Shown here: positions 18,143 to 29,018 of the stretch, piece by piece | Numbering within the stretch: the first letter of the stretch is position 1 | How the letters are laid out: each line of letters begins with the position of its first letter | Origin: a virus | IMG/VR virus record: IMGVR_UViG_3300042889_002533 | Location: 1 to 64,000 of that record | Reading direction: 5' to 3' (one strand) | DNA length: 64,000 nucleotides | Made by a program: the position numbers and the translations under genes | Notes under the pieces: generated by a model | What the model saw: only the letters and a program-made list of their open reading frames with translations | Told to the model about the DNA's origin: nothing | The model's database searches: none

Positions 18143-18153
18143 TAATCTAATTA

Positions 18154-18161: not shown

Positions 18162-18172
18162 AACTACAATCT

Positions 18173-18676: not shown

Positions 18677-18686
18677 ACTACAATCT

Positions 18687-18830
18687 ATGAACGACCACAT
18701 CTCAATCCCACCAACAGCAGCTGACGCATATCGTGCAATGTTAGCTGAACAAACATACGCCTCTCTTGAAGAAGCAGCCGATGCCATTGAAAAAGCTGGT
18801 GGTAAACGACCAAAGATTGTAAAGGCGTAA
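18687..18830 (+). CDS. Small putative internal head peptide (47 residues)
   Basis: Begins MNDHISIPPTAADAYRAMLA, then EQTYASLEEAADAIEKAG and a basic end KRPKIVKA. It is essentially the capsid-targeting leader plus about 25 residues. Spacing, promoter-like box and leader match the flanking paralogs, so it is likely a real gene or a remnant of one. Confidence 0.6.
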   Translation: MNDHISIPPTAADAYRAMLAEQTYASLEEAADAIEKAGGKRPKIVKA

Positions 18831-18854: not shown

Positions 18855-19550
18855 ATGAACAACAACAATATATCAACAGCGGCCAACGCATACCGTGCAA
18901 TGTTAGCAGAACAAAGAAACCAATTAACCGAAGCTTTTTCATATAAGGATAATGGTGATAAAAATGAACTCTCTAAGAAAGAAGTAAAGTCTATAATTGA
19001 TAAGTTTTGCGATAAACACAATTTGACTGTAGATTGGTATCCGGCTGCTAAAGATAGATTAGGTTGGTTTAAAGATGATGGCGATTTAAGCGTCAGAGTT
19101 AAAAAAAGTGATGCAGATACTCCTTCGTCTCCGCACATTGTGATACAATTCTCATGGTATAATAATGGGATGTTGGTTGGTCTTCATGGCTATAAAGACA
19201 ATCTTATGAAAGCTAAGCCTATTGATAAGGTTACATCTTCTGACGTTGAAGGCGCATTTGAAGCACAAATTGCTGGAGTAAAACCGGTTAAAGGTACTGT
19301 TGCTAAAATTAAAGAAGTTGCGCTTAAAACACTCTCTAAGATTAACAATGTTGATATTACAGCAGCCGATATTAAAACCGCAGAAGCAGACGTTGATGAT
19401 GCTGGTATTACTCGCATTTTGATTCCTAGCACGTGTGTCATATACCTCTTGACCAATGCTGACATTAAGGAATATGAATTTGGTGATAGTGACAATGAAG
19501 ACCTGTTCTCTGTAGGCAATGGACAAAAACTTGTTGTTGTAGCAATCTAA
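18855..19550 (+). CDS. Putative internal head protein
   Basis: 231 residues. Leader ISTAANAYRAMLAEQRNQL as in the paralogs, then an unrelated acidic body with no recognised domain. The shared leader with divergent bodies is the pattern of T4 internal proteins IPI to IPIII. Own late promoter. Confidence 0.65.
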   Translation: MNNNNISTAANAYRAMLAEQRNQLTEAFSYKDNGDKNELSKKEVKSIIDKFCDKHNLTVDWYPAAKDRLGWFKDDGDLSVRVKKSDADTPSSPHIVIQFSWYNNGMLVGLHGYKDNLMKAKPIDKVTSSDVEGAFEAQIAGVKPVKGTVAKIKEVALKTLSKINNVDITAADIKTAEADVDDAGITRILIPSTCVIYLLTNADIKEYEFGDSDNEDLFSVGNGQKLVVVAI

Positions 19551-19553
19551 TTG

Positions 19554-19561
19554 TATAAATA
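19554..19561 (+). promoter_or_regulatory. T4-type late promoter TATAAATA
   Basis: Exact consensus 6 bases before ATG 19568. Confidence 0.7.
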
Positions 19562-19567
19562 AAGCGT

Positions 19568-19666
19568 ATGGTACAGGACAAACATAATAATACAGCAAAC
19601 GAGCAGCTCGCAGGACCTGCGCCGTTCCGCTGCAGTATTATATCAAAGGGACTTCCGCCCGCATAG
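19568..19666 (+). CDS. Very small late peptide (32 residues)
   Basis: Starts MVQDKHNNTANEQLAGPAPF and ends SIISKGLPPA. Not recognised. Support is an exact late promoter at the usual distance and a terminator 29 bases after its stop. No AYRAMLAE leader. Confidence 0.45.
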   Translation: MVQDKHNNTANEQLAGPAPFRCSIISKGLPPA

Positions 19667-19695
19667 AATCCAGACACCGTAAATTTAAAACACTT

Positions 19696-19728
19696 ACCTT
19701 TGTTCTGGAAACGGAACAAAGGTTTTTT
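19696..19728 (+). terminator. Rho-independent terminator
   Basis: ACCTTTGTTC, 8-base loop, GAACAAAGGT, then a T run. Ends the internal-protein gene block. Confidence 0.88.
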
Positions 19729-19754
19729 ATTTTTACATTTTAGACAAAAACTCC

Positions 19755-19783
19755 TTTACAAATCTCAATTTTTAGATTATAAT
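19755..19783 (+). promoter_or_regulatory. Early promoter of the tRNA/ncRNA array
   Basis: TTTACA 19755-19760, 17 bases, TATAAT 19778-19783. No ORF follows; transcription would enter the leader RNA and tRNA-Ile. Confidence 0.75.
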
Positions 19784-19833
19784 AATCGCATAACAAACGG
19801 CAACAACAAGTTGCCCAACATTTTTTCAAAATC

Positions 19834-19965
19834 TCAATGCGCGCCTTGTGCTACAAACAAGGTAACGACCGTGGTTGAACGGCTTGGATCTGAAAAGAGA
19901 TGCAATGACAGTAAGTTTAAATATGGAGCCGTGAGTCCCTTAGCGCACACCAATGCGCAACTCAC
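19834..19965 (+). ncRNA. Structured leader RNA before the first tRNA
   Basis: Hairpins seen: CCTTG/CAAGG, CCGT/ACGG, ATCT-GAAA-AGAT, and GTGAGT (19931)/ACTCAC (19960) enclosing GCGCA/TGCGC. The strand CCGTGAGTCC (19929-19938) can alternatively pair perfectly with GGACTCACGG (20063-20072) on the far side of tRNA-Ile. No ORF. Confidence 0.4.
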
Positions 19966-19977
19966 AAATTTTCAAAA

Positions 19978-20052
19978 CCTCCTGTAGCTCATCGGAAGAG
20001 CGGCTTCTTTATAAGGGGCGGGTAGTTGGGTCAGCACCAACCAGGAGGACCA
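19978..20052 (+). tRNA. tRNA-Ile(UAU)
   Basis: Acceptor CCTCCTG/CAGGAGG perfect, D stem GCTC/GAGC, anticodon loop TTTATAA giving UAU, CCA encoded. The T loop is GTCAGCA instead of TTCRANY, which is unusual. Confidence 0.8.
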
Positions 20053-20070
20053 ATTTGCAAACGGACTCAC

Positions 20071-20147
20071 GGAAAGTGGCGACGCACATGAGTGATTAAG
20101 TTCACGTCTTCGGATCAACATGACAAGTATGCCTGTAGAAGCTTTCC
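20071..20147 (+). ncRNA. tRNA-sized closed-stem RNA, not a tRNA
   Basis: GGAAAG (20071) and CTTTCC (20142) close a 77-base unit between tRNA-Ile and tRNA-Pro. Internal pairing GTGA/TCAC is visible; no T arm or anticodon loop found. Confidence 0.35.
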
Positions 20148-20156
20148 AAATTTTCA

Positions 20157-20233
20157 CGGATATTAGCTCAGCCTGTTAGAGCGCTGCGTTTGGGACGCAG
20201 AAGTCGTAGGTTAGAATCCTACATATCCGACCA
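20157..20233 (+). tRNA. tRNA-Pro(UGG)
   Basis: Acceptor CGGATAT/ATATCCG, anticodon stem CTGCG/CGCAG with loop TTTGGGA (UGG), CCA encoded. T loop TTAGAAT has A in place of the conserved C56. Confidence 0.88.
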
Positions 20234-20240
20234 GCTTAAA

Positions 20241-20330
20241 GGAACGGTGGCTGAGTGGTCTAAAGTACTCCCTTGCTAAGGGAACGTGGCAGCAATGTCA
20301 CCGTGGGTTCAAATCCCACTCGTTCCGCCA
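20241..20330 (+). tRNA. tRNA-Ser(GCU)
   Basis: 90 bases with a long variable arm and discriminator G. Loop TTGCTAA gives GCU. T loop TTCAAAT canonical. Acceptor GGAACGG pairs with TCGTTCC. Confidence 0.9.
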
Positions 20331-20354
20331 ATCTCAAACCAATATATAAACTAT

Positions 20355-20591
20355 ATGAAACAAACATACACACTAGCAAGCAGCGAATTTTGCGGACCAT
20401 GCAAGATGATTAAGAAGTATCTCGCAGAGAATAGTATCTCCGTGGCTGTGATCAATATGGAAGATGATCAAAAGTTTTTCATGGAAAACGGTATCAAGAC
20501 TGTTCCCGTTCTCCTAAGCTCTGATGGCGCCAGATATGCTGGTGTTGATGCCATTCTGGGCCATTTTTCAGCAAAAGCTGTAACTTGTTGA
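20355..20591 (+). CDS. Thioredoxin/glutaredoxin-like protein
   Basis: 78 residues. FCGPCKMIKKYL (residues 11-22) carries the CGPC redox pair, and KTVPVLL (near 52) contains the cis-Pro, both typical of a short thioredoxin fold. It may reduce the phage NrdA, as T4 NrdC does (inference). It sits alone between tRNA-Ser and an early promoter, preceded by a weak late-like TATATAAA box. Confidence 0.8.
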   Translation: MKQTYTLASSEFCGPCKMIKKYLAENSISVAVINMEDDQKFFMENGIKTVPVLLSSDGARYAGVDAILGHFSAKAVTC

Positions 20592-20599
20592 TTTTCAAC
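20587..20599. promoter_or_regulatory. Palindrome GTTGATTTTCAAC of early promoter module
   Basis: Perfect inverted repeat beginning at the thioredoxin-like gene stop, about 36 bases before the next -35. Confidence 0.6.
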
Positions 20600-20634
20600 G
20601 GCTAAAAATAAATGCAAAAACATGCATTTTTTCC

Positions 20635-20663
20635 TTTACAAAGCCGATTTTTTGTGGTATAAT
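20635..20663 (+). promoter_or_regulatory. Early promoter of an RNA-only transcript
   Basis: TTTACA 20635-20640, 17 bases, TATAAT 20658-20663. The next 620 bases hold structured RNA, not genes. Confidence 0.78.
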
Positions 20664-20677
20664 AATTCTGTAAGGCG

Positions 20678-20757
20678 AAACTAATTCCCCAAACCGAAGC
20701 TAAATAAGATCTGGATTTAATAATACTTTCTTGTTTACAAGTTGCAGAAATTAGTTT
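20678..20757 (+). ncRNA. Closed-stem RNA at transcript 5' end
   Basis: AAACTAATT (20678-20686) and AATTAGTTT (20749-20757) pair perfectly over 9 bp. The 5' strand begins within about 10 bases of the predicted transcription start. Confidence 0.4.
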
Positions 20758-20851
20758 ACAATTACAACACGATCAAACTGGTTGAGATTCAAAACCTCGG
20801 CTGATGCGATTCCTTCAAGGCAAAGTCTTGATTGTAGCTTGTTCTCCAAAT

Positions 20852-20969
20852 ATGATTGTTGCTAGGCGAAGGGCTAATAACCCTGCTGAACGGTGAAAAT
20901 CCGTTCCGTTAATCACTACGCTCTAAATGAGGTTACCGCCTCGGAATGAGAAGCCCTAGTTAAAATCAT
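20852..20969 (+). ncRNA. Multi-arm RNA with closing stems
   Basis: ATGATT/AATCAT and CTAGG/CCTAG close a unit with three inner hairpins: GGG-CTAATAA-CCC, GAACGG-TGAAAAT-CCGTTC and GAGG/CCTC. Two have 7-base loops, like a degenerate cloverleaf. Confidence 0.45.
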
Positions 20970-21173
20970 TGAGGTCATGTTGAGTGACAATCATGTTTGG
21001 ACCACAACATTTCTTTGACAACATTTTGATTTTGAAACCCAGGAGCATTCAGTCCCTGGTACCAAACAAGAAGAATGTGATTCCGCTCCTCGCTTTGAGT
21101 TGAAGCCGTTCACAAGTAAAACTTCACTGAAAACACTTTTAGGTGCTCATCCAGCTGATCAAGGCGGTGAGTT
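20970..21173 (+). other. Non-coding stretch with hairpins
   Basis: No ORF. ATGTTG (20977)/CAACAT (21005) and CCAGG/CCTGG near 21040-21060 are the clearest pairings. Probably continuing RNA units; no further assignment. Confidence 0.3.
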
Positions 21174-21260
21174 AAACGTGCGATCAGTACGGCCTTTAAA
21201 TTTTAATAGCACGTTTGATTATTGCGGCGAGCGACTGCAAGACCAGTGGTCGCAATAATC
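21174..21260 (+). ncRNA. Two adjacent strong hairpins before tRNA-Met
   Basis: AAACGTGC (21174)/GCACGTTT (21209), 8 bp, then GATTATTGCG (21217)/CGCAATAATC (21251), 10 bp perfect. No ORF. Confidence 0.5.
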
Positions 21261-21287
21261 AAAAGGAATTAGTGTAATACTTTTAAT

Positions 21288-21362
21288 CGCGGGTTAATCG
21301 AGTGGTTCAGATAGGTGTCTCATAAGCATCTCACGGGAGTTCGAATCTTCCACCCGCAACCA
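21288..21362 (+). tRNA. tRNA-Met(CAU), initiator-like
   Basis: Loop CTCATAA gives CAU. Position 1 C faces A72 (CGCGGGT/ACCCGCA), the mismatch typical of bacterial initiator tRNA; the three G-C pairs of the initiator anticodon stem are absent. CCA encoded; T loop canonical. Confidence 0.82.
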
Positions 21363-21367
21363 ATTTT

Positions 21368-21457
21368 GGGACGAAGGCAACTGTTAGATGCGTTGCGGCG
21401 GTCTGTAAAACCTCTACTTAAGAAACACCGTGGGTGCAATTCCCTCTCGGCCCACCA
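21368..21457 (+). tRNA. tRNA-Tyr(GUA), first copy, divergent
   Basis: 90 bases with long variable arm, loop CTGTAAA (GUA), CCA encoded. Acceptor GGGACGA/TCGGCCC has one A-G mismatch, and T loop is TGCAATT. May be degenerating. Confidence 0.65.
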
Positions 21458-21460
21458 TCC

Positions 21461-21607
21461 TTTATTGTTAAAGCATCTTTGGTTTGATGCTGTCCATATC
21501 GAGAACGGACTATGCCGGAGCATACGAACGAAGTACAAGTTCTATGGTGCAAACGGAAAATGCGCTCAAAGGCGCGCGAGGTGGTTCAATTCCACAGACA
21601 ATAAACA
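21461..21607 (+). ncRNA. tRNA-like RNA family, copy A
   Basis: Acceptor-like TTTATTGT/ACAATAAA (8 bp), two-base spacer, 6-bp D-like stem AGCATC/GATGCT with loop TTTGGTTT containing GG, and a T-like arm GTGG-TTCAATT-CCAC. In place of the anticodon arm is a region of about 70 bases with hairpins GTCC/GGAC, CATA-GAAC/GTTC-TATG and GCGC/GCGC. No CCA. A second copy at 24270 shares both ends. Confidence 0.65.
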
Positions 21608-21619
21608 TTTTTGATTTTT

Positions 21620-21705
21620 GGGTAGGTATACCGTTAAGGAGACGGTTCAGACTGTAAATCTGACGCCGCAAGGCTCGCTGGGATCGTTCCCCAGACTGCC
21701 CACCA
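21620..21705 (+). tRNA. tRNA-Tyr(GUA), second copy
   Basis: 86 bases, long variable arm, stem TCAGA/TCTGA with loop CTGTAAA (GUA), CCA encoded. T stem CTGGG/CCCAG perfect but loop is ATCGTTC, with A54 and T58 swapped relative to the usual T54 and A58. Confidence 0.82.
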
Positions 21706-21800
21706 ATTTGTATGAACAGCCGCTTTTCGTGTCTAGGGAAAAGCTCCACAATATCAAGGTTATGATATGGCGCTGGTGAAATTCCAGAACGGATTCAAAT
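21706..21800 (+). ncRNA. Cloverleaf-like RNA without anticodon
   Basis: ATTTG/CAAAT closes three arms: CTTTTC/GAAAAG (6 bp), ATATCA-AGGTTA-TGATAT (6 bp, 6-base loop) and CTGG-TGAAATT-CCAG (T-like, 7-base loop). The middle loop has no U33-anticodon arrangement. Confidence 0.5.
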
Positions 21801-21805
21801 TTTTA

Positions 21806-21880
21806 CCTGATGTAGCTCAGAGGAAGAGCATCCGCTTGATAAGCGGAAGGTCGAGATATCGTAATTCTCCATCAGGACCA
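21806..21880 (+). tRNA. tRNA-Ile(GAU)
   Basis: Acceptor CCTGATG/CATCAGG perfect, loop TTGATAA (GAU), CCA encoded. T loop ATCGTAA carries the A54/T58 swap. Confidence 0.85.
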
Positions 21881-21882
21881 AT

Positions 21883-21956
21883 TGAGGATTAGCATAATGG
21901 TAATGCATCTGACTTTGACTCAGAACATAGAAGTTCGATTCTTCTATCCTCTACCA
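21883..21956 (+). tRNA. tRNA-Gln(UUG)
   Basis: Stem TCTGA/TCAGA with loop CTTTGAC (UUG), T arm AGAAG-TTCGATT-CTTCT, CCA encoded. First acceptor pair is T-T, fitting the weak first pair of glutamine tRNAs. Confidence 0.85.
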
Positions 21957-21962
21957 ATTTAT

Positions 21963-22051
21963 GGGCTGGTATGATCGAGCTGAGCTGATGATTGCATATT
22001 GCAATTGTTCTAAGGAACCTTAAGTGAGTTTGAATCTCACACTGTCCACCA
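21963..22051 (+). ncRNA. Class II tRNA-like RNA with abnormal anticodon arm
   Basis: T arm GTGAG-TTTGAAT-CTCAC and encoded ACCA are normal and a variable arm (TAAGG-AA-CCTTA) is present. The anticodon arm is ATTGC-ATATT-GCAAT with a 5-base loop, or a 7-base loop lacking U33. Acceptor pairing is only about 5 of 7. Confidence 0.45.
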
Positions 22052-22089
22052 ATTTCAATGAGAGATTAGAGGTAAGTTGATATACAACA

Positions 22090-22161
22090 CCTTCTATAGC
22101 ATTATGGTAATGCGCCGACATGATATGTTGGAGATTCCCGGGTTCAAATCCCGGAGAAGGG
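22090..22161 (+). tRNA. tRNA-Ile(GAU)-like gene without CCA, nested in an outer stem
   Basis: Acceptor CCTTCT/AGAAGG, D stem GCAT/ATGC with GG, T arm CCGGG-TTCAAAT-CCCGG. The anticodon arm reads CCGAC-ATGATAT-GTTGG (GAU) or a 6-bp stem with loop TGATA. No CCA. An outer stem ATTAGAG (22065-22071)/CTCTAAT (22164-22170) encloses it. Functional status unclear. Confidence 0.5.
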
Positions 22162-22218
22162 TGCTCTAATAAACAACGAGGCGTCAGACCACGCCTACAA
22201 CATTGAGAAAATTTTAAT

Positions 22219-22293
22219 GGAGGTAAAGCTTTAATGGTGAAGCATCGAGCTTTTAACTCGAAGAACTGGGATCGTTACCCAGTGCCTCTACCA
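22219..22293 (+). tRNA. tRNA-Lys(UUU)
   Basis: Stem TCGAG/CTCGA, loop CTTTTAA (UUU), CCA encoded. T arm CTGGG-ATCGTTA-CCCAG again has A54/T58. Confidence 0.87.
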
Positions 22294-22300
22294 ATTTCAT

Positions 22301-22375
22301 GGGGTTGTAGCATAACGGTAATGCACCTGCTTTGCAAGTAGTAGATTGTCAGTTCGAATCTGACTAGCTCCACCA
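22301..22375 (+). tRNA. tRNA-Ala(UGC), first copy
   Basis: Loop TTTGCAA (UGC), acceptor GGGGTTG/TAGCTCC with the G3-T70 pair that AlaRS reads, canonical T loop, CCA encoded. Confidence 0.92.
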
Positions 22376-22380
22376 ATTTC

Positions 22381-22475
22381 CCTTGGTATCTACCCGCAAT
22401 TTGGGTATTGCTCACGAGTGTGAAGCAAGTCAGAAGTTAGGCTGGTCGCGACAGTAATCCTTCTGATGGCCAAGG
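22381..22475 (+). ncRNA. Three-arm closed-stem RNA
   Basis: CCTTGG (22381)/CCAAGG (22470) encloses TACCC-GCAATTT-GGGTA, TTGCT/AGCAA and TCAGAAG/CTTCTGA. No anticodon or T-loop consensus. Confidence 0.5.
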
Positions 22476-22483
22476 CTCTTTTC

Positions 22484-22557
22484 GCGGGATTAGTTTAATG
22501 GTAAAATGATAGTCTTCCAAACTGAAGTCGAGAGTTCAATTCTCTCATCCCGCACCA
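22484..22557 (+). tRNA. tRNA-Gly(UCC)
   Basis: Acceptor GCGGGAT/ATCCCGC perfect, loop CTTCCAA (UCC), T loop TTCAATT, CCA encoded. One mismatch in the anticodon stem. Confidence 0.9.
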
Positions 22558-22564
22558 ATCACAA

Positions 22565-22636
22565 TGGGCGATCTCTGGCATGGAGGTCTAAAAACCGAAA
22601 GGTATCCTCTGGGTTCGATTCCCAGTCGCTCCACCA
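22565..22636 (+). ncRNA. tRNA-like RNA with GAAA tetraloop instead of anticodon loop
   Basis: Acceptor TGGGCGA/TCGCTCC (6 of 7) with ACCA and a perfect T arm CTGGG-TTCGATT-CCCAG. The central hairpin is GAGG/CCTC then ACC-GAAA-GGT, so no 7-base anticodon loop can form. Confidence 0.5.
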
Positions 22637-22644
22637 ATCATAAC

Positions 22645-22719
22645 GGGCTGTTAGTAGAATGGATATAACGTTGCGCTACGAACGCAAAGATCTAGGTTCA
22701 ATTCCTGGGCGGCCTACCA
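22645..22719 (+). tRNA. tRNA-Arg(ACG)
   Basis: Stem TTGCG/CGCAA, loop CTACGAA (ACG), T loop TTCAATT, CCA encoded, acceptor with several G-T pairs. Confidence 0.88.
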
Positions 22720-22756
22720 ATTTTCGCTAATGTATTCGGGTACGATGCATCGGCAA

Positions 22757-22824
22757 CTCTACCAGTGAAGCAAATCATATTTGCGAAGAATTCGTGACCA
22801 GTGAAAGTCGGTTTAACGGTAGAG
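22757..22824 (+). ncRNA. Closed-stem RNA
   Basis: CTCTACC/GGTAGAG (7 bp) encloses GCAAAT-CAT-ATTTGC and a T-like segment. Just upstream is the palindrome CGATGCATCG (22743), also present in the phoH leader. Confidence 0.45.
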
Positions 22825-22863
22825 CAATTTTAATACATAGTGTAAAGGCATAAGATATAAAAA

Positions 22864-22940
22864 GATGCATTAGGGTAATTGGTTATCCCGCCACGCTTTC
22901 ACCGTGGAGATTACGAGTTCAAATCTCGTATGCATTGCCA
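22864..22940 (+). tRNA. tRNA-Glu(UUC)
   Basis: Stem CCACG/CGTGG, loop CTTTCAC (UUC), discriminator G, CCA encoded, canonical T loop. Confidence 0.92.
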
Positions 22941-22947
22941 TTCTTTT

Positions 22948-23022
22948 GGGTCGTTCGTTCAACGGATAGGACTGAGGATTTCTACTCCTCCGATGCAGGT
23001 TCGATTCCTGCACGACCCACCA
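22948..23022 (+). tRNA. tRNA-Arg(UCU)
   Basis: Acceptor GGGTCGT/ACGACCC, stem GAGGA/TCCTC, loop TTTCTAC (UCU), CCA encoded. Confidence 0.93.
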
Positions 23023-23028
23023 TTTTCT

Positions 23029-23105
23029 GATACTGTGGTGGTATCGCTTACAGGAGTTTTCGGTCCCTACACTGTGTCTTTGCTACACGGAACCGATAAA
23101 TTTTT
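23029..23105 (+). ncRNA. Possible structured spacer RNA
   Basis: Hairpins GATAC-TGTGGTG-GTATC and CGGT...ACCG enclosing GTGT/ACAC. tRNA-sized, but no T arm or CCA. Confidence 0.3.
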
Positions 23106-23182
23106 GAAGATGTAGCTCAGCTGGTTAGAGCACTTGCCTGTCGAGCAAGACGTCGTGGGTTCGAGCCCCATCATTTTCGCCA
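23106..23182 (+). tRNA. tRNA-Asp(GUC)
   Basis: Acceptor GAAGATG/CATTTTC, D stem GCTC/GAGC, stem CTTGC/GCAAG with loop CTGTCGA (GUC), discriminator G, CCA encoded. Confidence 0.93.
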
Positions 23183-23193
23183 TTCTTTTCATT

Positions 23194-23270
23194 GGCCGTG
23201 TAGCCGAATTGGTATAGGCAGCGAACTTAAAATTCGTAATCTGTCGGTTCGAGTCCGACCATGGCTACCA
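23194..23270 (+). tRNA. tRNA-Leu(UAA), short variable arm
   Basis: Stem GCGAA/TTCGT, loop CTTAAAA (UAA), CCA encoded, canonical T loop. Only 77 bases: the long variable arm of bacterial leucine tRNAs is missing. Confidence 0.88.
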
Positions 23271-23317
23271 TTTTATAGCTTAAAGGTTAATGCAACAAAC
23301 TCTGAAATTATGATTTG

Positions 23318-23325
23318 TATAAATA
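23318..23325 (+). promoter_or_regulatory. T4-type late promoter TATAAATA
   Basis: Exact consensus 5 bases before ATG 23331 of the GIY-YIG gene. Confidence 0.72.
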
Positions 23326-23330
23326 CTTTT

Positions 23331-23960
23331 ATGTTATATACAATCTATCAAGTAACCAATTTGCTTAACAGCAAGATATACATTGGAAAGCATCAGACAA
23401 CTAATCCTGATGACTCTTATTATGGTTCAGGTGTTGCACTGAAGAAAAGTATTGCTAAACATGGTAAAGATAACTTTAAGAAGGCGGTATTATTTGTATT
23501 TCAAACCGAAGAGGAAATGAATGCAAAGGAAACAGAATTGATTACTGAAGAATTTGTTGCTCGTAGCGATACATACAACATGGGAGTGGGTGGTGAAGGC
23601 GGCGCTCATTTTAAAGGCAAATCTCATTCGGCTGAAACTGTTGAACGTATCAAACAATCACTTGGTTCTGATGAGAATAAACAAAAACTCATTGAAGCTG
23701 GACGTAAAGCAGGCTCTTTATCCAAAGGAAGAAAGTTAAGTGCAACTGCTCGACAGAATATGTCTGACGCTCAGAGAAAAGCTATCTCCGATGAGACCAA
23801 GAAAAAAATTTCAGAATCATTAAAGAAATTTAATGAAGAAAATCCAGGCCACCTCAAAGGTCTAGTAAAAAGAAAACGCAAACCTTTAAGTGAAGAAACT
23901 AAGGAAAAGCTTAGACAAATTCAACTTAAACGTTGGCAAAATAAAAGGCTCGTAGCTTAG
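23331..23960 (+). CDS. GIY-YIG homing endonuclease (SegB/SegF-like) in the tRNA array
   Basis: 209 residues. MLYTIYQVTNLLNSKIYIGK is the GIY-YIG core (residues 1-20), followed by YYGSG and NMGVGGEGG. The C-terminal half has repeated NUMOD3-type DNA-binding segments (GKSHSAETVERI, SKGRKLSATARQNMS, RKPLSEETKEKL). Such enzymes copy themselves into related phages by cutting near tRNA genes. The last 15 bases including the stop lie inside tRNA-Met. Own late promoter. Confidence 0.85.
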   Translation: MLYTIYQVTNLLNSKIYIGKHQTTNPDDSYYGSGVALKKSIAKHGKDNFKKAVLFVFQTEEEMNAKETELITEEFVARSDTYNMGVGGEGGAHFKGKSHSAETVERIKQSLGSDENKQKLIEAGRKAGSLSKGRKLSATARQNMSDAQRKAISDETKKKISESLKKFNEENPGHLKGLVKRKRKPLSEETKEKLRQIQLKRWQNKRLVA

Positions 23961-24023
23961 CGGTTTTAAAGCGTTCGACTCATAATCGAAGGATCCTCGG
24001 TTCGAGTCCGAGCGGGCCCACCA
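23946..24023 (+). tRNA. tRNA-Met(CAU), elongator-like (or tRNA-Ile2)
   Basis: Stem TTCGA/TCGAA, loop CTCATAA (CAU), D stem GCTT/AAGC, canonical T arm, CCA encoded. Its first 15 bases are also the end of the endonuclease gene. Whether C34 is modified for Ile cannot be told. Confidence 0.85.
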
Positions 24024-24035
24024 TTTTATATACCG

Positions 24036-24189
24036 TCTCGCGGCGTCACCGCTAGTGTGTTCACGAAAGAACGTAACAAAACGGCAAGTTGTTACCCATA
24101 TGAAAGAAGCTTGTAGCGCAAGTAAAAATCGTAAGCCAAACGTTGAAGTGATGTTCAACAAAGGGTGCCCCGGCAGTTTGATGCCGTTA
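24036..24189 (+). other. Non-coding stretch with hairpins
   Basis: No credible ORF. Hairpins GTTGAA/TTCAAC (near 24140), CGGCA/TGCCG (near 24175), GTTC/GAAC and CTTG/CAAG are visible. Probably RNA units; not resolved further. Confidence 0.3.
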
Positions 24190-24259
24190 TCTCGCAATTT
24201 GCTGGAGCATGCGTTAAGCATTGCGCAGAAGGCAAATGATGCAATTCGTTGCAGCGAGA
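24190..24259 (+). ncRNA. Closed-stem RNA
   Basis: TCTCGC/GCGAGA closes the unit; inside are ATTTGC/GCAAAT (6 bp) and TGCAA-TTCG-TTGCA. 70 bases, tRNA-sized but no anticodon or T loop. Confidence 0.45.
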
Positions 24260-24269
24260 ATCATTTACT

Positions 24270-24406
24270 TTTATTGTTAAAGCATCTTTGGTTGATGCTG
24301 TCTGCCCAGACTATGACAATACACCGAACGCTGATCATGTTCAAGTGTGTAATGTAAAATGTGCTCATAGGCGCGTGAGGTGGTTCAATTCCACAGACAA
24401 TAAACA
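24270..24406 (+). ncRNA. tRNA-like RNA family, copy B
   Basis: First 36 and last 60 or so bases nearly identical to copy A at 21461. The middle differs in sequence, but helices persist: GTCT/AGAC replaces GTCC/GGAC, and GAAC/GTTC is kept with a different flanking stem (TACAC/GTGTA). A G-C in the GCGC stem becomes G-T. This supports a selected RNA structure. Confidence 0.68.
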
Positions 24407-24409
24407 TTT

Positions 24410-24496
24410 TTACAATGGAAATCGGTGAGTTAGGTGCATATTAGGTTATGCATACAGGCTTGAAATTCCGTGTGGGTCAATATCCATACATTGTAA
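24410..24496 (+). ncRNA. Closed-stem tRNA-like RNA
   Basis: TTACAATG/CATTGTAA (8 bp) encloses TGCAT-(8-base loop)-ATGCA and GTGTGG-GTCAATAT-CCATAC, a T-like arm. No CCA. Confidence 0.5.
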
Positions 24497-24508
24497 ATAT
24501 AAAAAGCC

Positions 24509-24602
24509 ATATGAAGGTTACGGGCTTCCTTCTCCAGCTATAAGGATTCATATAGCTAGTGCCAGTCCTGCATAACGCATTGAGAGTGCATACTCTATGG
24601 AC
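24509..24602 (+). ncRNA. Closed-stem RNA pair
   Basis: ATATGAA (24509)/TTCATAT (24547), then GTCC/GGAC enclosing AGAGT-GCAT-ACTCT. No ORF. Confidence 0.4.
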
Positions 24603-24613
24603 AAATTTTCAAT

Positions 24614-24688
24614 GGCTAGAGGGAATCTGGCGAGTGAATTCATAACGGGGTGCGACTCCCCGAGATTCCACAAACACTCTAGCCACCA
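24614..24688 (+). ncRNA. 75-base RNA with two nested acceptor-like stems and ACCA end
   Basis: Outer GGCTAGAG/CTCTAGCC (8 bp) followed by ACCA. Directly inside, GGAATCT/AGATTCC (7 bp) and a T-like arm CGGGG-TGCGACT-CCCCG, with only 17 bases where D and anticodon arms belong. Not a foldable tRNA, yet tRNA-sized with a tRNA end. Confidence 0.5.
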
Positions 24689-24692
24689 TTTT

Positions 24693-24780
24693 TGGGTATC
24701 ACTCCTCTGATAGGGAGAAGAAAAGAACAAGTCCCTGCGCTAGCAATGCAAACCCTAACACCTGAATTGACAGGAACCCA
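24693..24780 (+). ncRNA. Closed-stem RNA
   Basis: TGGGT/ACCCA encloses CTCC/GGAG and CCTG-AATTGA-CAGG. Weak closing stem. Confidence 0.35.
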
Positions 24781-24788
24781 CCTTTTTT

Positions 24789-24890
24789 AGAAGAGTAACA
24801 TAACGGCAGTTATGGTTGAGGTTCGAATCCCCATTTGTTGGAAACAACAATCTGGCGACTTATATTGGTTCAATTCCAATCTCTTCTGCA
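24789..24890 (+). ncRNA. 102-base tRNA-like RNA with two T-like arms
   Basis: Acceptor AGAAGAG/CTCTTCT perfect, then GCA. T arm ATTGG-TTCAATT-CCAAT at the 3' side. A second T-like element (GG-TTCGAAT-CC) and a hairpin TTGTTG-GAAA-CAACAA lie inside. No anticodon arm found. Confidence 0.5.
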
Positions 24891-24894
24891 TTTT

Positions 24895-24971
24895 TAGATA
24901 TGTAAAGGGAAGGACGTTCAGTTAGTCCTATAGTTTGCAAACTCCCGCAATCAAACTTTATGCCATATCTA
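24895..24971 (+). ncRNA. Closed-stem RNA
   Basis: TAGATATG/CATATCTA (8 bp) encloses AGGAC/GTCCT and AGTTTG/CAAACT. 77 bases; no CCA or T loop. Confidence 0.5.
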
Positions 24972-24987
24972 TTTTTCAATGCAACAC

Positions 24988-25048
24988 GCAACCGTATAGG
25001 TTGCTTCGATATAGGAATAGTCATAAAAGCTTAATGACGTACCATATC
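24988..25048 (+). ncRNA. Hairpin group
   Basis: GCAACC/GGTTGC, then GATAT...CCATATC enclosing GTCA/TGAC. No ORF. Confidence 0.35.
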
Positions 25049-25080
25049 TGAGAGGTTTTGACACCAGTGCTTGCTCCAAT

Positions 25081-25305
25081 TTTAACATCGGCGTGGAAAG
25101 CAGACACGCAGGAAAATGTGGTTGGTATGAAAGTGCTCTTGGAGATACACCGAGATGAGAGCATGAGTAGGCCGACCTTGACCGAAGAGAAGAGCCGTGT
25201 ATGGCGAGTAAACAGAATGCAAACCAACTCCGAATCGAGATTGAGAGGCATGTCCTGTTGGTAGTAATAACTACGTCTAATCAGAGTAGCGCCTGATATG
25301 TTAAA
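25081..25305 (+). ncRNA. 225-base structured RNA
   Basis: TTTAACA...GGCG at the 5' end pairs with CGCC...TGTTAAA at the 3' end. Inside, GTTGGT/ACCAAC and GCTCT/AGAGC nest. No convincing start or coding bias in any frame. Larger than a tRNA. Confidence 0.5.
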
Positions 25306-25317
25306 CATTTTCTACTG

Positions 25318-25384
25318 CTCCAGCAGCGACCGTTCGCTACGGAAACTGTAAAGCATGGCTTACAACACTGGAGGAAGGAAGCCA
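25318..25384 (+). ncRNA. Putative H-type pseudoknot RNA
   Basis: CTCCAG (25318-25323) pairs with CTGGAG (25368-25373). TGGCTT (25356-25361), lying inside that loop, pairs with AAGCCA (25379-25384) outside it. Connectors are 6 and 5 bases. A small hairpin CCGT/ACGG fills the first loop. Confidence 0.45.
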
Positions 25385-25425
25385 CAAAGCACCTGTCTGT
25401 TAAATGCGCGGTTCTTCCGCAATAG

Positions 25426-25538
25426 GGTGTAAAGATGACAGCCGGAAAGACGGCACAACGTCAGCAGGAAAAGCAGGTTCAATGCCTGTCGCGAATGGCC
25501 ATAAACCTCAGCGGGCCGGTAGGGATCGGACTGACACC
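25426..25538 (+). ncRNA. Closed-stem RNA
   Basis: GGTGT/ACACC closes it; inside GCCG/CGGC and CAGG-TTCAATG-CCTG, a T-like arm. Preceded by GCGG/CCGC near 25408. Confidence 0.4.
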
Positions 25539-25693
25539 TTTATCTGTCGAGAATATCTACACACGGCTGTGAAGACCTATGCTGATGATCCGTCTGAGGC
25601 GATGTAAATCGCTACAAAGTGGCCCTTCCATGATTCAGCGAAGATGCTGTATATACGTGAGGGGTATATGCATATACAGGTCTGACAGATAAA
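25539..25693 (+). ncRNA. 155-base structured RNA with 10-bp closing stem
   Basis: TTTATCTGTC/GACAGATAAA is perfect. Inside AGACC/GGTCT encloses GCGAT-GTAA-ATCGC, CAGC/GCTG and a TATATAC-rich hairpin. Confidence 0.5.
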
Positions 25694-25721
25694 CAATTTT
25701 TGCGTCCTATGCGTTTTCTCA

Positions 25722-25799
25722 CCGTTTTTGCGACGATGCAATTGAAGCGCAATGAGCGGAAAAAACGGATCAGGTTAGAGGTTATCCAGTAAAAACCTC
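25722..25799 (+). ncRNA. Two hairpin RNAs before a small gene
   Basis: CCGTTTTT (25722)/AAAAACGG (25761) with inner TTGCG/CGCAA, then GAGGTT (25778)/AACCTC (25794). Confidence 0.42.
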
Positions 25800-25808
25800 A
25801 CCAATTTT

Positions 25809-26030
25809 ATGACAAACAAACAAGTAACATTATACAAAGGAACTCGTGAAGAGTTTGAAGCAAAATATGAAGATTACAAACCAGTGGGAAAATCATTCAA
25901 AGAACAATTGGATGCTATTCAATCTATTGGAATGGTATTTTATTTTTTAGAAACATCAACTAAGGATGAAGAAGGTAATTATCTAATAAATCGTTTAGTT
26001 GAAAATGATTTCATTATAATCGCATCATAA
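25809..26030 (+). CDS. Unknown small protein inside the RNA array
   Basis: 73 residues: MTNKQVTLYKGTREEFEA then a mixed alpha/beta body and end NDFIIIAS. Codon use is protein-like and it is the only credible ORF between 24.0 and 26.9 kb. No promoter or strong ribosome site at its start; not recognised. Confidence 0.55.
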   Translation: MTNKQVTLYKGTREEFEAKYEDYKPVGKSFKEQLDAIQSIGMVFYFLETSTKDEEGNYLINRLVENDFIIIAS

Positions 26031-26035
26031 ACAAT

Positions 26036-26199
26036 TTTGCGGTCATTGAGGGGTATTCGTCACTAAGACGTTTGTGCAAGGTAGTCAACATAAAACGCAC
26101 GATTCAGCGATGAGTTAATGCAGTTGATAGAAATCGAGTCTTTCGAGGCGATTATTCGGTTGGGAACACATTGCACGATATAGCGACCTGAGCCGCAAA
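26036..26199 (+). ncRNA. 164-base closed-stem RNA
   Basis: TTTGCGG/CCGCAAA (7 bp) encloses GTGCAA/TTGCAC and ATCG/CGAT hairpins. No ORF. Confidence 0.45.
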
Positions 26200-26206
26200 C
26201 CCATTT

Positions 26207-26268
26207 CCAATTACCTGACTGCAAGCGGCTATACCTGATAAAGTAGTGCGCAGTAGGTCAGGAATTGG
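26207..26268 (+). ncRNA. Long hairpin RNA
   Basis: CCAAT, CCTGAC and ACTGC pair with GCAGT, GTCAGG and ATTGG in order, an almost continuous stem of about 15 bp with small internal loops. Confidence 0.5.
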
Positions 26269-26276
26269 TCAATTTT

Positions 26277-26343
26277 ATGAGAGGATCATACGGAGATCGC
26301 TAGGCCCATAGTCTAGAGAGGAGGTTAAATTCCTTCCCCTCAT
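26277..26343 (+). ncRNA. tRNA-like RNA with CAU in an anticodon-like loop
   Basis: Acceptor ATGAGAG/CCCTCAT (6 of 7), T arm GGAGG-TTAAATT-CCTTC, anticodon arm CTAGG-CCCATAG-TCTAG giving CAU but with C33 instead of U33. No CCA and a weak D arm. Could be a decayed tRNA-Met. Confidence 0.4.
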
Positions 26344-26345
26344 AA

Positions 26346-26445
26346 TTCGTATTCATACGCGATAAAGTATGACGCTGCTAAGAGTGTATCCTTAGATAGT
26401 CCCAGCCCTGGATGAGTCGTAGGCCGTAATGCTATGGGCACATCA
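26346..26445 (+). ncRNA. Hairpin-rich spacer
   Basis: CGTAT/ATACG and CTAAG/CTTAG hairpins; overall fold not resolved. Confidence 0.28.
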
Positions 26446-26622
26446 TTTTCTATCGTGCGTTTTGATCGCCCGAAGTATTCGAGGAAAACAGACTGGAAGG
26501 TAGTCTATATACACATTGAGTATGTAGGTGTTCGGCGAGACAGTACTTGTAGAAAAGTGAAGAGGGATCAATGAAAAGTGAGAGTCTGCAAAACGACACC
26601 ACACCTCTTCAGCGATAGAAAA
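26446..26622 (+). ncRNA. 177-base structured RNA with 10-bp closing stem
   Basis: TTTTCTATCG/CGATAGAAAA perfect, then CGTTTTG/CAAAACG (7 bp) nested inside, enclosing CGAA/TTCG and AGACT/AGTCT hairpins. Confidence 0.5.
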
Positions 26623-26647
26623 ACTTTCGTATATATAACTATACAAA

Positions 26648-26734
26648 TCCACTGTACCCTAATGGCAAGGGACCGCACTGTTAATGCGGCGTATATCCGA
26701 GAGGATTATGAAGGTTCGAGTCCTTCTGGTGGAG
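26648..26734 (+). tRNA. tRNA with Asn anticodon (GUU) on a class II body
   Basis: Stem CCGCA/TGCGG, loop CTGTTAA (GUU), T arm GAAGG-TTCGAGT-CCTTC. It has a long variable arm of about 20 bases and discriminator G, followed by CCC not CCA. Long arm plus G73 are serine-tRNA traits. Either a rebuilt tRNA-Asn or a tRNA-Ser with changed anticodon. Confidence 0.75.
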
Positions 26735-26763
26735 CCCTTTATTATTAACGACTTATATATAAT

Positions 26764-26838
26764 GGCTCATACGCATAGAAAGCGATGCACCGGATTTGTA
26801 ACCCGGATAGGAGTGTGCATGTCACTCATGAGCCTCCA
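26764..26838 (+). tRNA. tRNA-Thr(UGU), noncanonical loops
   Basis: Acceptor GGCTCAT/ATGAGCC perfect, D stem GCAT/ATGC, loop TTTGTAA (UGU), CCA encoded. The D loop AGAAAGCG lacks GG and the T loop is TGCATGT; both sides of the usual D-T loop contact are altered. Confidence 0.75.
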
Positions 26839-26845
26839 CTTTTAT

Positions 26846-26926
26846 GCAGGCGTTAGCGTAGCGGCCGAACGCACCTGATTTACATTCAGGCAATCACCGC
26901 AGGTTCGAATCCTGCCGCCTGTACCA
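26846..26926 (+). tRNA. tRNA-Val(UAC)
   Basis: Acceptor GCAGGCG/CGCCTGT, stem CCTGA/TCAGG, loop TTTACAT (UAC), canonical T arm, CCA encoded. Variable loop slightly long. Confidence 0.88.
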
Positions 26927-26950
26927 TTTCATAAGATGTATATATACTTT

Positions 26951-27586
26951 ATGAGAAAATTCATTTTGTTTTTAGCGCTGATGGCTGCCGTTCAATCATG
27001 CGCACCACAAAAAGAAACGCTGTTGTTGTCAAACCCACCAGTTGCACAGCTTGTGGCTCCATCGGTTGAAAAAGCAATCAGTGTTAAAAACAAAATCAAC
27101 AAAACGGTTGACTCACAGCGTGTTAATATAACAGCGGTTGACTCTGACATCAAACAGTCTATAGCGTATGCAGTGTTGGTCAAACCATACACTGATGTGG
27201 ATGCAAATGGCACCACGCATTATTCAGCCTTGATTCGTTACTTAAATAGTGCCGACACACATATACAACTGCTTACAGCTGCAAACACAGCCTTGATTGC
27301 CGATGAGCAATCGCTGCAAACTCTTTTGGATGCTAGTTTATCAGCCGCACAAAACAAGGATGCCGAAGCTGCGTCACTGATTGCAGCTGCCGCTAATAAA
27401 GACTTAGTGATAGCTGAAGGTAAGATCAAACTTAATGCCGCGCTTGCTAAAGCTCGTGTGTTAGAGCTTGATCTTGAAAACGCTGCAGCCTATAAGAAAG
27501 GCGTGGTTGCATTGGTTGCTCTAATTTTTCTCTATTTTATTTTCCGAGCAGTTGCTAGCATATGGTCGCCATTCTCTAAATTTTAA
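26951..27586 (+). CDS. Candidate unimolecular spanin (lipoprotein with C-terminal membrane anchor)
   Basis: 211 residues from the ATG 4 bases after a late-like TATATATAC. N-terminal signal MRKFILFLALMAAVQSCAP with a lipobox-like VQSC. The middle (residues 35-175) is Ala/Asn/Lys-rich and helical, suited to a periplasmic coiled coil. A transmembrane helix VVALVALIFLYFIFRAVA lies at the C-terminus. Outer-membrane lipid plus inner-membrane anchor in one protein is the u-spanin layout (as in phage T1), used to fuse membranes at lysis of Gram-negative hosts. Gln at lipobox -2 is atypical. Confidence 0.6.
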   Translation: MRKFILFLALMAAVQSCAPQKETLLLSNPPVAQLVAPSVEKAISVKNKINKTVDSQRVNITAVDSDIKQSIAYAVLVKPYTDVDANGTTHYSALIRYLNSADTHIQLLTAANTALIADEQSLQTLLDASLSAAQNKDAEAASLIAAAANKDLVIAEGKIKLNAALAKARVLELDLENAAAYKKGVVALVALIFLYFIFRAVASIWSPFSKF

Positions 27587-27591
27587 TATAG

Positions 27592-27599
27592 TATAAATA
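27592..27599 (+). promoter_or_regulatory. T4-type late promoter before tRNA-Ala
   Basis: Exact TATAAATA 11 bases before tRNA-Ala, with no ORF following. tRNAs downstream may be made late as well as early. Confidence 0.6.
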
Positions 27600-27610
27600 C
27601 AATTTCTAAA

Positions 27611-27685
27611 GGGGATATAGCTCAGCGGTAGAGCAGATCACTTGCACTGATAAGGTCTGCAGTTCGATCCTGCATATCTCCACCA
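27611..27685 (+). tRNA. tRNA-Ala(UGC), second copy
   Basis: Acceptor GGGGATA/TATCTCC with G3-T70, loop CTTGCAC (UGC), T arm TGCAG-TTCGATC-CTGCA, CCA encoded. Confidence 0.88.
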
Positions 27686-27688
27686 AAT

Positions 27689-27762
27689 GCGTTGTTCGTC
27701 TAATGGTAAGACTATTGATTCCAAACCAATAAACGTGGGTTCGATTCCTACACAACGTGCCA
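27689..27762 (+). tRNA. tRNA-Trp(CCA)
   Basis: Acceptor GCGTTGT/ACAACGT, loop TTCCAAA giving CCA, discriminator G, CCA encoded, canonical T loop. Confidence 0.85.
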
Positions 27763-27767
27763 TTTTT

Positions 27768-27842
27768 CCCTACTTAGCTGAGGCGGATTAGCGCAAGACT
27801 GAAAATCTTGAAAGGTTGGATCGTTACCAACAGTAGGGGCCA
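27768..27842 (+). tRNA. tRNA-Phe(GAA)
   Basis: Acceptor CCCTACT/AGTAGGG perfect, stem CAAGA/TCTTG, loop CTGAAAA (GAA), CCA encoded. T arm GTTGG-ATCGTTA-CCAAC with A54/T58 swap. Confidence 0.87.
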
Positions 27843-27855
27843 TTTTTTTATATAC

Positions 27856-27928
27856 GGAAGTTGTCCGGTTGGTCGAGGACACTGTCTTGAAAACGGAAGA
27901 GGGCGACGAGCTCTCCGTGGGTTCAAAG
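27856..27928 (+). pseudogene. Truncated tRNA-Ser(UGA)
   Basis: Begins as GGAAGTTGTCCGG with anticodon loop CTTGAAA (UGA) and a long variable arm, then GTGGG-TTCAAA of the T arm. It breaks off there; no matching 3' acceptor AACTTCC is found. The break is next to the HNH endonuclease gene. Confidence 0.65.
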
Positions 27929-27937
27929 GTTCGTTTT

Positions 27938-27945
27938 GTATAAAT
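27938..27945 (+). promoter_or_regulatory. T4-type late promoter TATAAATA
   Basis: Exact consensus 6 bases before ATG 27952 of the HNH gene. Confidence 0.72.
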
Positions 27946-27951
27946 AAACCC

Positions 27952-29008: not shown

Positions 29009-29018
29009 TTTTTTTATA

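Follow-up and report, generated by a model that had tools for sequence, protein, structure and literature searches.

Bacteriophage T4 carries two non-tRNA RNAs, RNA C and RNA D (rnaC and rnaD; species 1 and 2), within its tRNA cluster, and the sections of two T4 accounts that cover them describe late RNAs, validated by Northern analysis, whose function is unknown (PMC9697503, PMC3014915). The ROOL and GOLLD RNAs of phages and prophages are likewise structured, often lie near tRNA islands and have no known function, and the GOLLD linker sometimes contains tRNAs, according to the portions of one report that deal with them (PMC12286853). Here, we analyzed the first 64,000 bases (hereafter the window) of the 84,920-base virus record IMGVR_UViG_3300042889_002533, in which a preliminary description had noted an array of about 25 structured non-tRNA RNAs interleaved with tRNAs. 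On the evidence of its sequence, this locus (approximately 19,755-29,093, plus strand) is a co-oriented array in which tRNA genes alternate with many small structured non-coding RNA genes, and we conclude that most of the non-tRNA units are probably real RNA genes and not spacer. Non-tRNA RNAs in phage tRNA clusters are a known kind of element; what is new is a large modular array with several families outside Rfam.

The array contains 23 tRNAs called by ARAGORN over its whole length. Within 19,750-26,640, we delimited 32 non-tRNA units of ~50-275 nt and a leader hairpin alongside 16 ARAGORN tRNAs, one of which lies inside a unit (uI). The earlier count was therefore fair, as was the claim that such RNAs outnumber the tRNAs around them. 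A 33rd unit, uAE (26740-26840), holds a tRNA (26764-26835) that scores above the Rfam cut-off. Unit borders were set at linkers where present, and otherwise from neighboring genes, stems and alignments; the borders of families were placed partly by eye. The short T run described after the units was present as an A(1-4)T(3-6) linker ((A)ATTTT-type) within 8 bases of the 3' end in 22 of the 32 units. Two promoter-like sites open the array, although promoter-like and terminator-like sites overall were not commoner than in shuffled sequence (promoter-like, 20 versus 21.4). We place the phage in the T4 superfamily because a virion structural protein (4796-6127) has ~40% identity to cyanomyovirus proteins and because, among 11 records from this phage and related ones, 4 encode a T4-type Gp23 capsid protein (e.g., G001:C1:95395-96462; none in the window's own record, which is a fragment). 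The units thus share the setting of T4 RNA C and D, that of non-tRNA structured RNAs inside a tRNA cluster of the T4 superfamily, with the difference that T4 has two such RNAs and this array ~31 units.

The closing stems named in the preliminary description were present to within a base or two. They include 11 contiguous pairs (counting G-U) in uZ (25539/25694), 9 bp in uAD (26448/26622) and uC (20678/20757), 6 to 8 pairs in uP (24412/24497) when flanking bases are counted, and 7 pairs in uV (24895/24970). However, the longest closing stem was better than that of the stretch's own dinucleotide shuffles (p<0.05) in only 7 of 34 stretches, so we rejected closing stems alone as proof and used folding energy, homology and covariation instead. 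In the folding comparison with dinucleotide-shuffled controls, the 34 non-tRNA stretches had a mean z of -1.69 (14 below -2, 5 above 0), well below length-matched stretches of the gene-rich part of the window (mean z -0.40; 1 of 68 below -2; Mann-Whitney p = 4e-6) and close to the tRNAs (mean z -1.80; 8 of 21 below -2, with 21 of the window's 23 tRNAs used). As a set, the units fold as well as tRNAs. Units uM and uB had z near or above zero despite structures supported by covariation, which indicates that single-sequence folding misses some units.

To obtain homologues, we gathered related IMG/VR contigs by scanning with a protein encoded next to the array (29420-30385) and with patterns from three units. 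This yielded ~180 related loci in all (numbered with the prefix L), with a dereplication from 67 to 42; as the loci were fetched via these units or the neighboring protein, they give no measure of prevalence. We counted as a homologue any nhmmer match at E<=0.01 in a contig, disregarding two contigs that are assemblies of this phage itself. Among the 33 units queried, 22 had a homologue in other phage contigs, with a best E for each of at most 3.3e-7.

Covariation, whose absence had beforehand been named as evidence against structured RNAs here, was present in five families, one of them (c4) found only in relatives. In all five, the covariation score was reached by none of 500 shuffles and every slid control was lower; these tests do not model phylogeny. 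Many of the contigs are near-identical and few independent lineages are represented, so the sequence counts given below overstate the independent evidence. The family of uM forms a new pseudoknot, (A)GG-AG-N-[S2 5']-C-CC(U)...hairpin...AAC-[S2 3'], in which both stems are kept by compensatory change, with double changes in four pairs of S2 and one of S1 (covariation 0.468 versus 0.150 ± 0.030 shuffled; slid control at most 0.146). The uM alignment (A2) comprised 14 sequences, 4 of which look unpaired in helix 3, where their hairpin lies one base earlier. It left out five members with a long inner hairpin (L006, L013, L028, L033, L035), the uE-type copies (window, L026) and identical copies (L017, L035, L022, L028, L038). 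From a further alignment, A7, rows identical to L017 (L035, one L066 copy) were omitted. Copies of this pseudoknot motif are found in uM, in uE and at the 3' end of uA. Its covariance model (R1) gave 27 matches at E<=1 across 47 sources, seeds included. For the 25 matches with E<=0.04, the distance to a tRNA gene never exceeded 800 bases and was at most 40 bases in 19 of them; three of the R1 loci (L004, L005, L038) have a single tRNA each. R1 had no match in the whole T4 and S-CRM01 genomes. A scan with the motif tested 211 pattern matches and put out 25. Six of these 25, located outside known tRNA arrays (L069, L073, L093, L116, L118, L129), were dropped as chance, and in a loose pattern search most of the loci among the matches listed later proved to be without the motif.

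In the remaining families, nearly all cells were paired: 70 of 70 in uB (five sequences; covariation 0.514 versus 0.262 shuffled), 99.3% of 152 in uG/uO (four sequences), 99.7% of 665 in uAC (18 sequences) and 99.5% of 208 in c4 (eight sequences). As these four structures were read from the same alignments and folds, the percentages lean towards them, and the double changes are the stronger evidence. Double-change pairs numbered four in uG/uO (reached by 9 of 500 shuffles), 7 in uAC (3.3 shuffled; 0 of 500) and ten in c4 (4.4; 0 of 500); two helices of the uAC cloverleaf are invariant across the 18 sequences. A helix scan whose result was left unassessed, and which omitted short partial hits and left uZ and uAB to be judged separately, found double changes in uAD, uS and uD, the last via the partial homologue in L174. 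A candidate pseudoknot in uQ is plausible but not significant by itself, as its 49 of 49 paired cells included one double change only, a number reached by 86 of 500 shuffles.

The preliminary description had also noted that inner hairpins often imitate tRNA arms. For T-arms this was borne out: we counted 10 T-arm-like hairpins (a T-loop-like 7-base loop on a 5-bp stem; one belongs to the tRNA inside uI), compared with 1.36 expected from mononucleotide shuffles (maximum of 5 in 200). In seven of these hairpins, the sequence immediately 3' has a partner with which it can form 6-7 bp, as in an acceptor stem, a count made without a shuffle control. The predicted minimum free energy fold of uS does not show its T-arm, the pairs of which change on both sides in relatives. 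D-type arms were seen in uG/uO and c4. The uG/uO structure consists of the closing stem, a D-like arm with a GG loop, a T-arm and, between them, three further arms, one of three helices. In uAC, the 5' domain folds into a small cloverleaf whose last arm (5 bp, 7-base loop) lies beside the closing stem; c4 combines an acceptor stem of 7 bp with a D-type arm (GG in at least 6 of 8 sequences), a T-arm and three other arms. A whole tRNA-Ile lies inside the larger structure of uI. The covariance model of c4 (R2), a loose model with an effective sequence number of 0.96, was searched against 34 loci. It recovered 12 members scoring at least 100 bits; the next 34 matches, none above 32.6 bits, all fell on ARAGORN tRNAs, including tRNAs of the window (31.2, 24.9 and 21.3 bits) and one of T4 (20.4 bits). 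As R2 also matches ordinary tRNAs, c4 is tied to tRNAs without being a decoding tRNA. A decoding anticodon arm has a 5-bp stem and a 7-base loop with U33. No arm capable of decoding was found in uG/uO (three arms instead), in uAC (6 bp, 5-base loop) or in c4 (3 bp; A, not U, before GCA). At the gathering cut-off of the Rfam tRNA model (RF00005, 29 bits), the window has 24 matches, namely the 23 ARAGORN tRNAs and the tRNA in uAE; no unit passes beyond the tRNAs in uI and uAE. Some units are missed or divergent tRNAs; u213, u219 and u225 look like divergent ones.

Unit order and combination vary among the 38 loci that we mapped, 35 of which have at least one unit (none in L010, L016 and L021). 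The order P-Q-R-S-T-U-V-W-X-Y-Z-AA-AB-AC-AD of the window becomes P-Q-R-S-Z-AB-AC in L056, P-Q-R-X-S-Z-AB-AC-AD in L066, W-Z-AB-AC-AD in L006 and S-Z-AB-AD in L011, such that uS is followed directly by uZ in L011, L056 and L066 whereas six units separate them in the window. Of 161 ends of local alignments to 22 loci, 85 (53%) lay no more than 8 bases from a linker, compared with 18% of all positions; the count includes tRNA ends, and the ends are not mutually independent. L002 is otherwise 99.99% identical over 14.4 kb and yet has uS joined to uW, with exactly uT, uU and uV missing. Misassembly is less likely because another contig, L001, matches the array without a difference. In 23 loci of relatives, 189 unassigned segments between tRNAs formed 21 clusters, some of which are coding or pieces of tRNA. 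Two clusters, c5 (L007:1098-1222, L013:3182-3305 and others) and c10 (L026:10984-11066, L172, L174, L029), are conserved non-tRNA units that we did not see in the window and that have double changes in the unassessed helix scan.

The analogy with the small T4 RNAs proved apt. RNA C also has a T-arm (CCGGG-UUCGAAU-CCCGG), which adjoins a closing helix that is short and interrupted, with long arms in place of the anticodon arm, and folds at a z of -4.57; RNA D does not share this outline and folds little better than its shuffles (z -0.83). Neither of the two families modelled matched RNA C or RNA D: in T4, R2 found only a tRNA (none at E<=1 in a separate search). Reordering between phages is seen here, and we met no report of it for RNA C and D. 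GOLLD, with tRNAs in its linker, is comparable to uI, which encloses a tRNA, but many GOLLD members exceed 800 nt. The Rfam models of ROOL and GOLLD had no match in the window or in nine relatives (both at gathering thresholds), or in 19500-29300 at E<=5.

The tRNA-like domain of tmRNA combines an acceptor stem with a D-type arm and a T-arm but has a replacement for the anticodon arm, a feature that the tRNA-like units share. They differ from tmRNA in being short, and the array is followed by a separate tmRNA at 31581-31903 (76.9 bits in Rfam; missed by ARAGORN); u225 alone scores with the tmRNA model, weakly (14.9 bits; cut-off 47). We observed tmRNAs in or near the arrays of several relatives too. 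Engineered tRNA-scaffold RNAs, which are laboratory constructs, carry a payload RNA in place of the anticodon arm, the same placement as we propose for the tRNA-like units. Type III toxin-antitoxin systems, which phages meet, have a ToxI antitoxin made of small pseudoknots cut from an RNA array. Small pseudoknots from an array occur here as well; unlike in ToxI, there are no tandem near-identical repeats, and among the 33 unit queries only uG and uO matched each other, 2.7 kb apart.

Rfam matched only tRNAs in the array and only tRNAs and the tmRNA in the whole window. Sub-threshold matches were set aside (plastid and cis-regulatory families over tRNAs, engA over the tRNA of uI, and tRNA-Sec at 21.6 bits over uU). 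Group I and group II intron models had no match in the window. Among the nine relatives searched with Rfam, the array of L013 has two group I introns (994-1182 and 6242-6436), and at ~601-887 in L006 a tRNA appears by eye to be split by an insert, where Rfam found no intron. A blastn search of 50,697 records of named phages (E<=1e-3) with 24,025-26,647 returned no match. The whole array matched 121 phage records, and the 20 of the 121 that we examined fell on tRNAs, on homing endonucleases or on unannotated sequence that overlaps a tRNA. One 24-base pattern had no match in bacterial genomes, which says little. We found no description of this array in the literature covered, from which most subscription papers were absent. 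The suggestion of an undescribed system thus stands in part: there are structured RNAs beyond tRNAs, and no other family was found for them in Rfam or in named phages, while some units are missed or divergent tRNAs.

Features of the array, with homologues in related loci (L numbers); z, folding z-score
Feature	Position	Strand	Remarks
Promoter-like TTTACA-17-TATAAT	19755..19783	+	11/12 consensus bases
Leader hairpin GGCAAC/GTTGCC then T-run, terminator-like	19790..19819	+	z -4.75
uA; 3' part a copy of the GGAG/CCC pseudoknot motif	19826..19965	+	R1 match 19920-19968, 36.9 bits; distinct homologues L006, L013, L026, L028, L035
uB; closing helix and UUCG hairpin	20057..20147	+	single-sequence z +0.7; homologues L006, L013, L033, L066
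Second promoter-like TTTACA-17-TATAAT	20635..20663	+	11/12 consensus bases
uC; 9-bp closing stem	20672..20757	+	stem reached by 0/200 shuffles; z -0.15; no homologue
uD	20758..21030	+	z -2.88; homologue L026, partial L174
uE; GGAG/CCC motif at its start	21039..21204	+	z -0.59; homologue L026
uF; hairpin	21205..21275	+	z -3.0; no homologue
u213; divergent tRNA	21368..21457	+	25.2 bits as tRNA (cut-off 29); z +1.11; no homologue
uG; tRNA-like, five arms	21459..21606	+	9-bp closing stem; homologues L006, L066
tRNA-Tyr missed by ARAGORN	21620..21708	+	87.5% identical to ARAGORN tRNA-Tyr(gta) of L013
uH	21710..21796	+	z -0.53; homologue L026
u219; tRNA-like, CCA end	21960..22051	+	98% identical in L006
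uI; tRNA-Ile (22089-22162) nested in larger structure	22053..22207	+	z -3.95; no homologue
uJ; four-way-junction fold	22378..22482	+	z -3.41; no homologue
u225; T-arm CTGGG-TTCGATT-CCCAG and acceptor, CCA end	22562..22640	+	z -0.78; no homologue
uK	22721..22825	+	z -2.04; homologue L006
uM; hairpin and GGAG/CCC pseudoknot	23027..23097	+	single-sequence z ~0; blastn matches in 17 loci of the dereplicated set
uN	24025..24262	+	z -1.23; homologue L029
uO; paralogue of uG	24265..24405	+	78% identical to uG
uP; closing stem and adjoining T-arm-like hairpin	24412..24497	+	z -2.39; distinct homologues in 7 other contigs
uQ; possible H-type pseudoknot AAGCC/GGCTT and GAAGG/CCTTC	24498..24546	+	not significant alone
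uR; free-standing copy of uAC 3' domain, as in L006, L058, L066	24547..24602	+	z -0.14
uS; GGAATCT/AGATTCC stem and T-arm CGGGG-TGCGACT-CCCCG inside outer 9-bp stem	24608..24687	+	z -4.19
uT, uU (two T-arms), uV	24693..24970	+	uU z -2.62; no homologues; missing from near-identical phage L002
uW	24976..25077	+	z -2.69; homologues L006, L034
uX	25083..25306	+	z -2.22; homologue L066
uY	25311..25538	+	z +0.34; no homologue; among the weakest units
uZ; 11-bp closing stem	25539..25694	+	z -2.83; homologues L006, L011, L056, L066
uAA	25701..25802	+	z -1.75; no homologue
uAB	26037..26270	+	homologues in 6 other contigs, also L172-L174
uAC; cloverleaf-like 5' domain and 3' hairpin domains	26275..26444	+	covariation, 18 sequences
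uAD; 9-bp closing stem	26448..26622	+	double changes in unassessed helix scan, 11 sequences

Several other features lie in or beside the array. A homing endonuclease gene (23310-23960, phrog_314) between tRNA-Leu and tRNA-Met has DNA similarity to Seg-like genes of T4-like phages, and a small thioredoxin-domain gene (20355-20591, phrog_22) lies upstream of the second promoter-like site. At 27855-27930, the 5' part of a tRNA-Ser-like sequence is apparently cut off at the start of a homing-endonuclease open reading frame (27808-28797, phrog_655), and after that frame comes another tRNA-like sequence (~28788-28876), whose anticodon position reads TGA; both were recognized by eye and were not called by ARAGORN. 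Just upstream of the array, 17311-18775 contains several direct repeats of 67-250 bp that are 82-91% identical.

The sequence itself documents AU linkers after most units, pairing that is conserved in five families, the movement of complete units between phages and, in some units, arms of the tRNA type, and we conclude that the units are almost certainly real RNA cassettes. We propose that one or both promoters (~19,755 and 20,635) would make long transcripts, that host ribonucleases of the RNase E type would cut them at the AUUUU linkers, and that tRNA enzymes (RNase P, 3' trimming) would trim the tRNA-like units; processing of the units together with the tRNAs is likely. Bacterial RNase P processes tRNA-like and pseudoknotted RNAs, according to the relevant part of one report (PMC11143913). 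In the units that resemble tRNAs, a stable tRNA body of acceptor stem, D-type arm and T-arm may serve as a scaffold for a different payload, the anticodon arm being lost, altered or replaced by up to three arms. The mature RNAs would persist and act in trans, their most likely job being that of decoys or inhibitors of host proteins that bind RNA or tRNA. We put the probability of this whole explanation, co-transcribed cassettes cut at AU linkers that act in trans in phage-host conflict, at roughly 0.4.

A role in phage-host conflict or host adaptation is, taken by itself, a tentative proposal. We favor it because the set of units turns over between relatives while each unit stays conserved, and, indirectly, because of findings given in the pertinent sections of three reports. 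Phage tRNA regions counter tRNA-targeting defenses, and T5-like phages that had lost the tRNA-rich part of their genome were poorer at infecting bacteria with retrons (PMC11555353). Certain immune nucleases target the tails of tRNAs (PMC12851939). When a T4-like phage was evolved on one host, every line acquired the same mutation in its homologue of rnaD (PMC12685909).

Several observations weigh against this explanation or against parts of its evidence. The number of double-change pairs in uM (9 versus 7.0 shuffled) was reached by 28 of 500 shuffles, and further standard pair types were not raised in the other families, their count being reached by 313 (uB), 198 (uG/uO), 380 (uAC) and 468 (c4) of 500 shuffles. 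Ten of the 32 units (uC, uF, u213, uJ, u225, uP, uQ, uT, uY, uAD) have no 3' linker by the rule above. Eleven of the 33 units (uC, uF, u213, uI, uJ, u225, uT, uU, uV, uY, uAA) have no homologue, such that folding is their only evidence, and for several, including uY and uC, that evidence is slight; uY, uC and u213 fold no better than shuffles. Maturation of the tRNA type is not certain, as uG, uO and c4 end without an encoded CCA. Decoys of anticodon nucleases would need an anticodon arm, which several units lack, and the strong conservation could partly be recent exchange. Recurrent tRNA neighbors, seen in several loci but not everywhere (uA before tRNA-Ile(tat), uM near tRNA-Leu(taa), uAC after tRNA-Gly), would fit a cis role for some units.

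These neighbors bear on the alternative that the units are cis-acting spacers or processing scaffolds that keep adjacent tRNAs correctly folded and cut, for which interleaving with tRNAs, the common linker and the recurrent pairs of uA with tRNA-Ile and uAC with tRNA-Gly all speak. However, several tRNAs adjoin directly with no unit between them (e.g., 21806/21883 and 22219/22301), 17 units follow one another without an intervening ARAGORN tRNA (24,025-26,647), and the conserved specific sequence and the pseudoknot exceed what a spacer needs, so we regard a purely local role as unlikely. We judge similarly improbable that the units are trans-acting regulatory RNAs, which would time infection by base-pairing to mRNAs of phage or host, or by binding regulatory proteins. 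Near-invariant stretches, such as the uAC 5' domain across 18 sequences and the GGAG, GTCCC and AAC of the pseudoknot motif, would suit such RNAs, and the part of a T4 review that treats them says that T4-related genomes may suggest such RNAs (PMC3014915), but many of the conserved stretches sit within folded arms. A narrower idea, that the GGAG motif is a substrate or decoy of a RegB-type nuclease, was set aside, RegB being found in T4 only (1 of 12 records, several others of which are fragments).

The units could also be debris, made up of decaying tRNAs, intron remnants and recombination products tolerated in arrays. The resemblance of u213, u219 and u225 to divergent tRNAs, the group I introns of one relative, in which some tRNA matches are without acceptor positions, the homing endonucleases in the array, the coming and going of units and the 11 units without a homologue would all fit debris. 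Covariation already strains this account: compensatory changes and near-invariant sequence occur in several phages, the set folds as strongly as tRNAs, and no intron was matched in the window, which leaves it quite improbable in our view. Module borders that coincide with linkers, and endonuclease genes within the array, might alternatively mean that the inverted repeats are recombination or endonuclease sites acting as DNA cassettes, with the RNA irrelevant. Pairing is, however, conserved within internal folds of several arms that include G-U pairs, T-loops and a pseudoknot, for which DNA recombination would have no need, and we consider this explanation very unlikely.

Under the proposal of co-transcribed, trans-acting cassettes, the locus might be viewed as an "RNA island" of phages, in which dozens of distinct non-coding RNA genes are gathered as cassettes between tRNAs, exchanged and expressed together, including five-arm RNAs with tRNA-scaffolded payloads and pseudoknot RNAs, and which would be an exchangeable anti-defense arsenal, the RNA counterpart of anti-defense gene islands; we offer this wider view as speculation that is more doubtful than not. 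T4 RNA C and D are still without a known function, and a clade with ~30 such RNAs, of covarying structure and exchanged as cassettes, offers alignments, natural deletions and well-defined units for testing. If the units do act in trans, phage tRNA arrays would also be arsenals of non-coding RNA, and annotation of tRNAs only would miss many of their genes.

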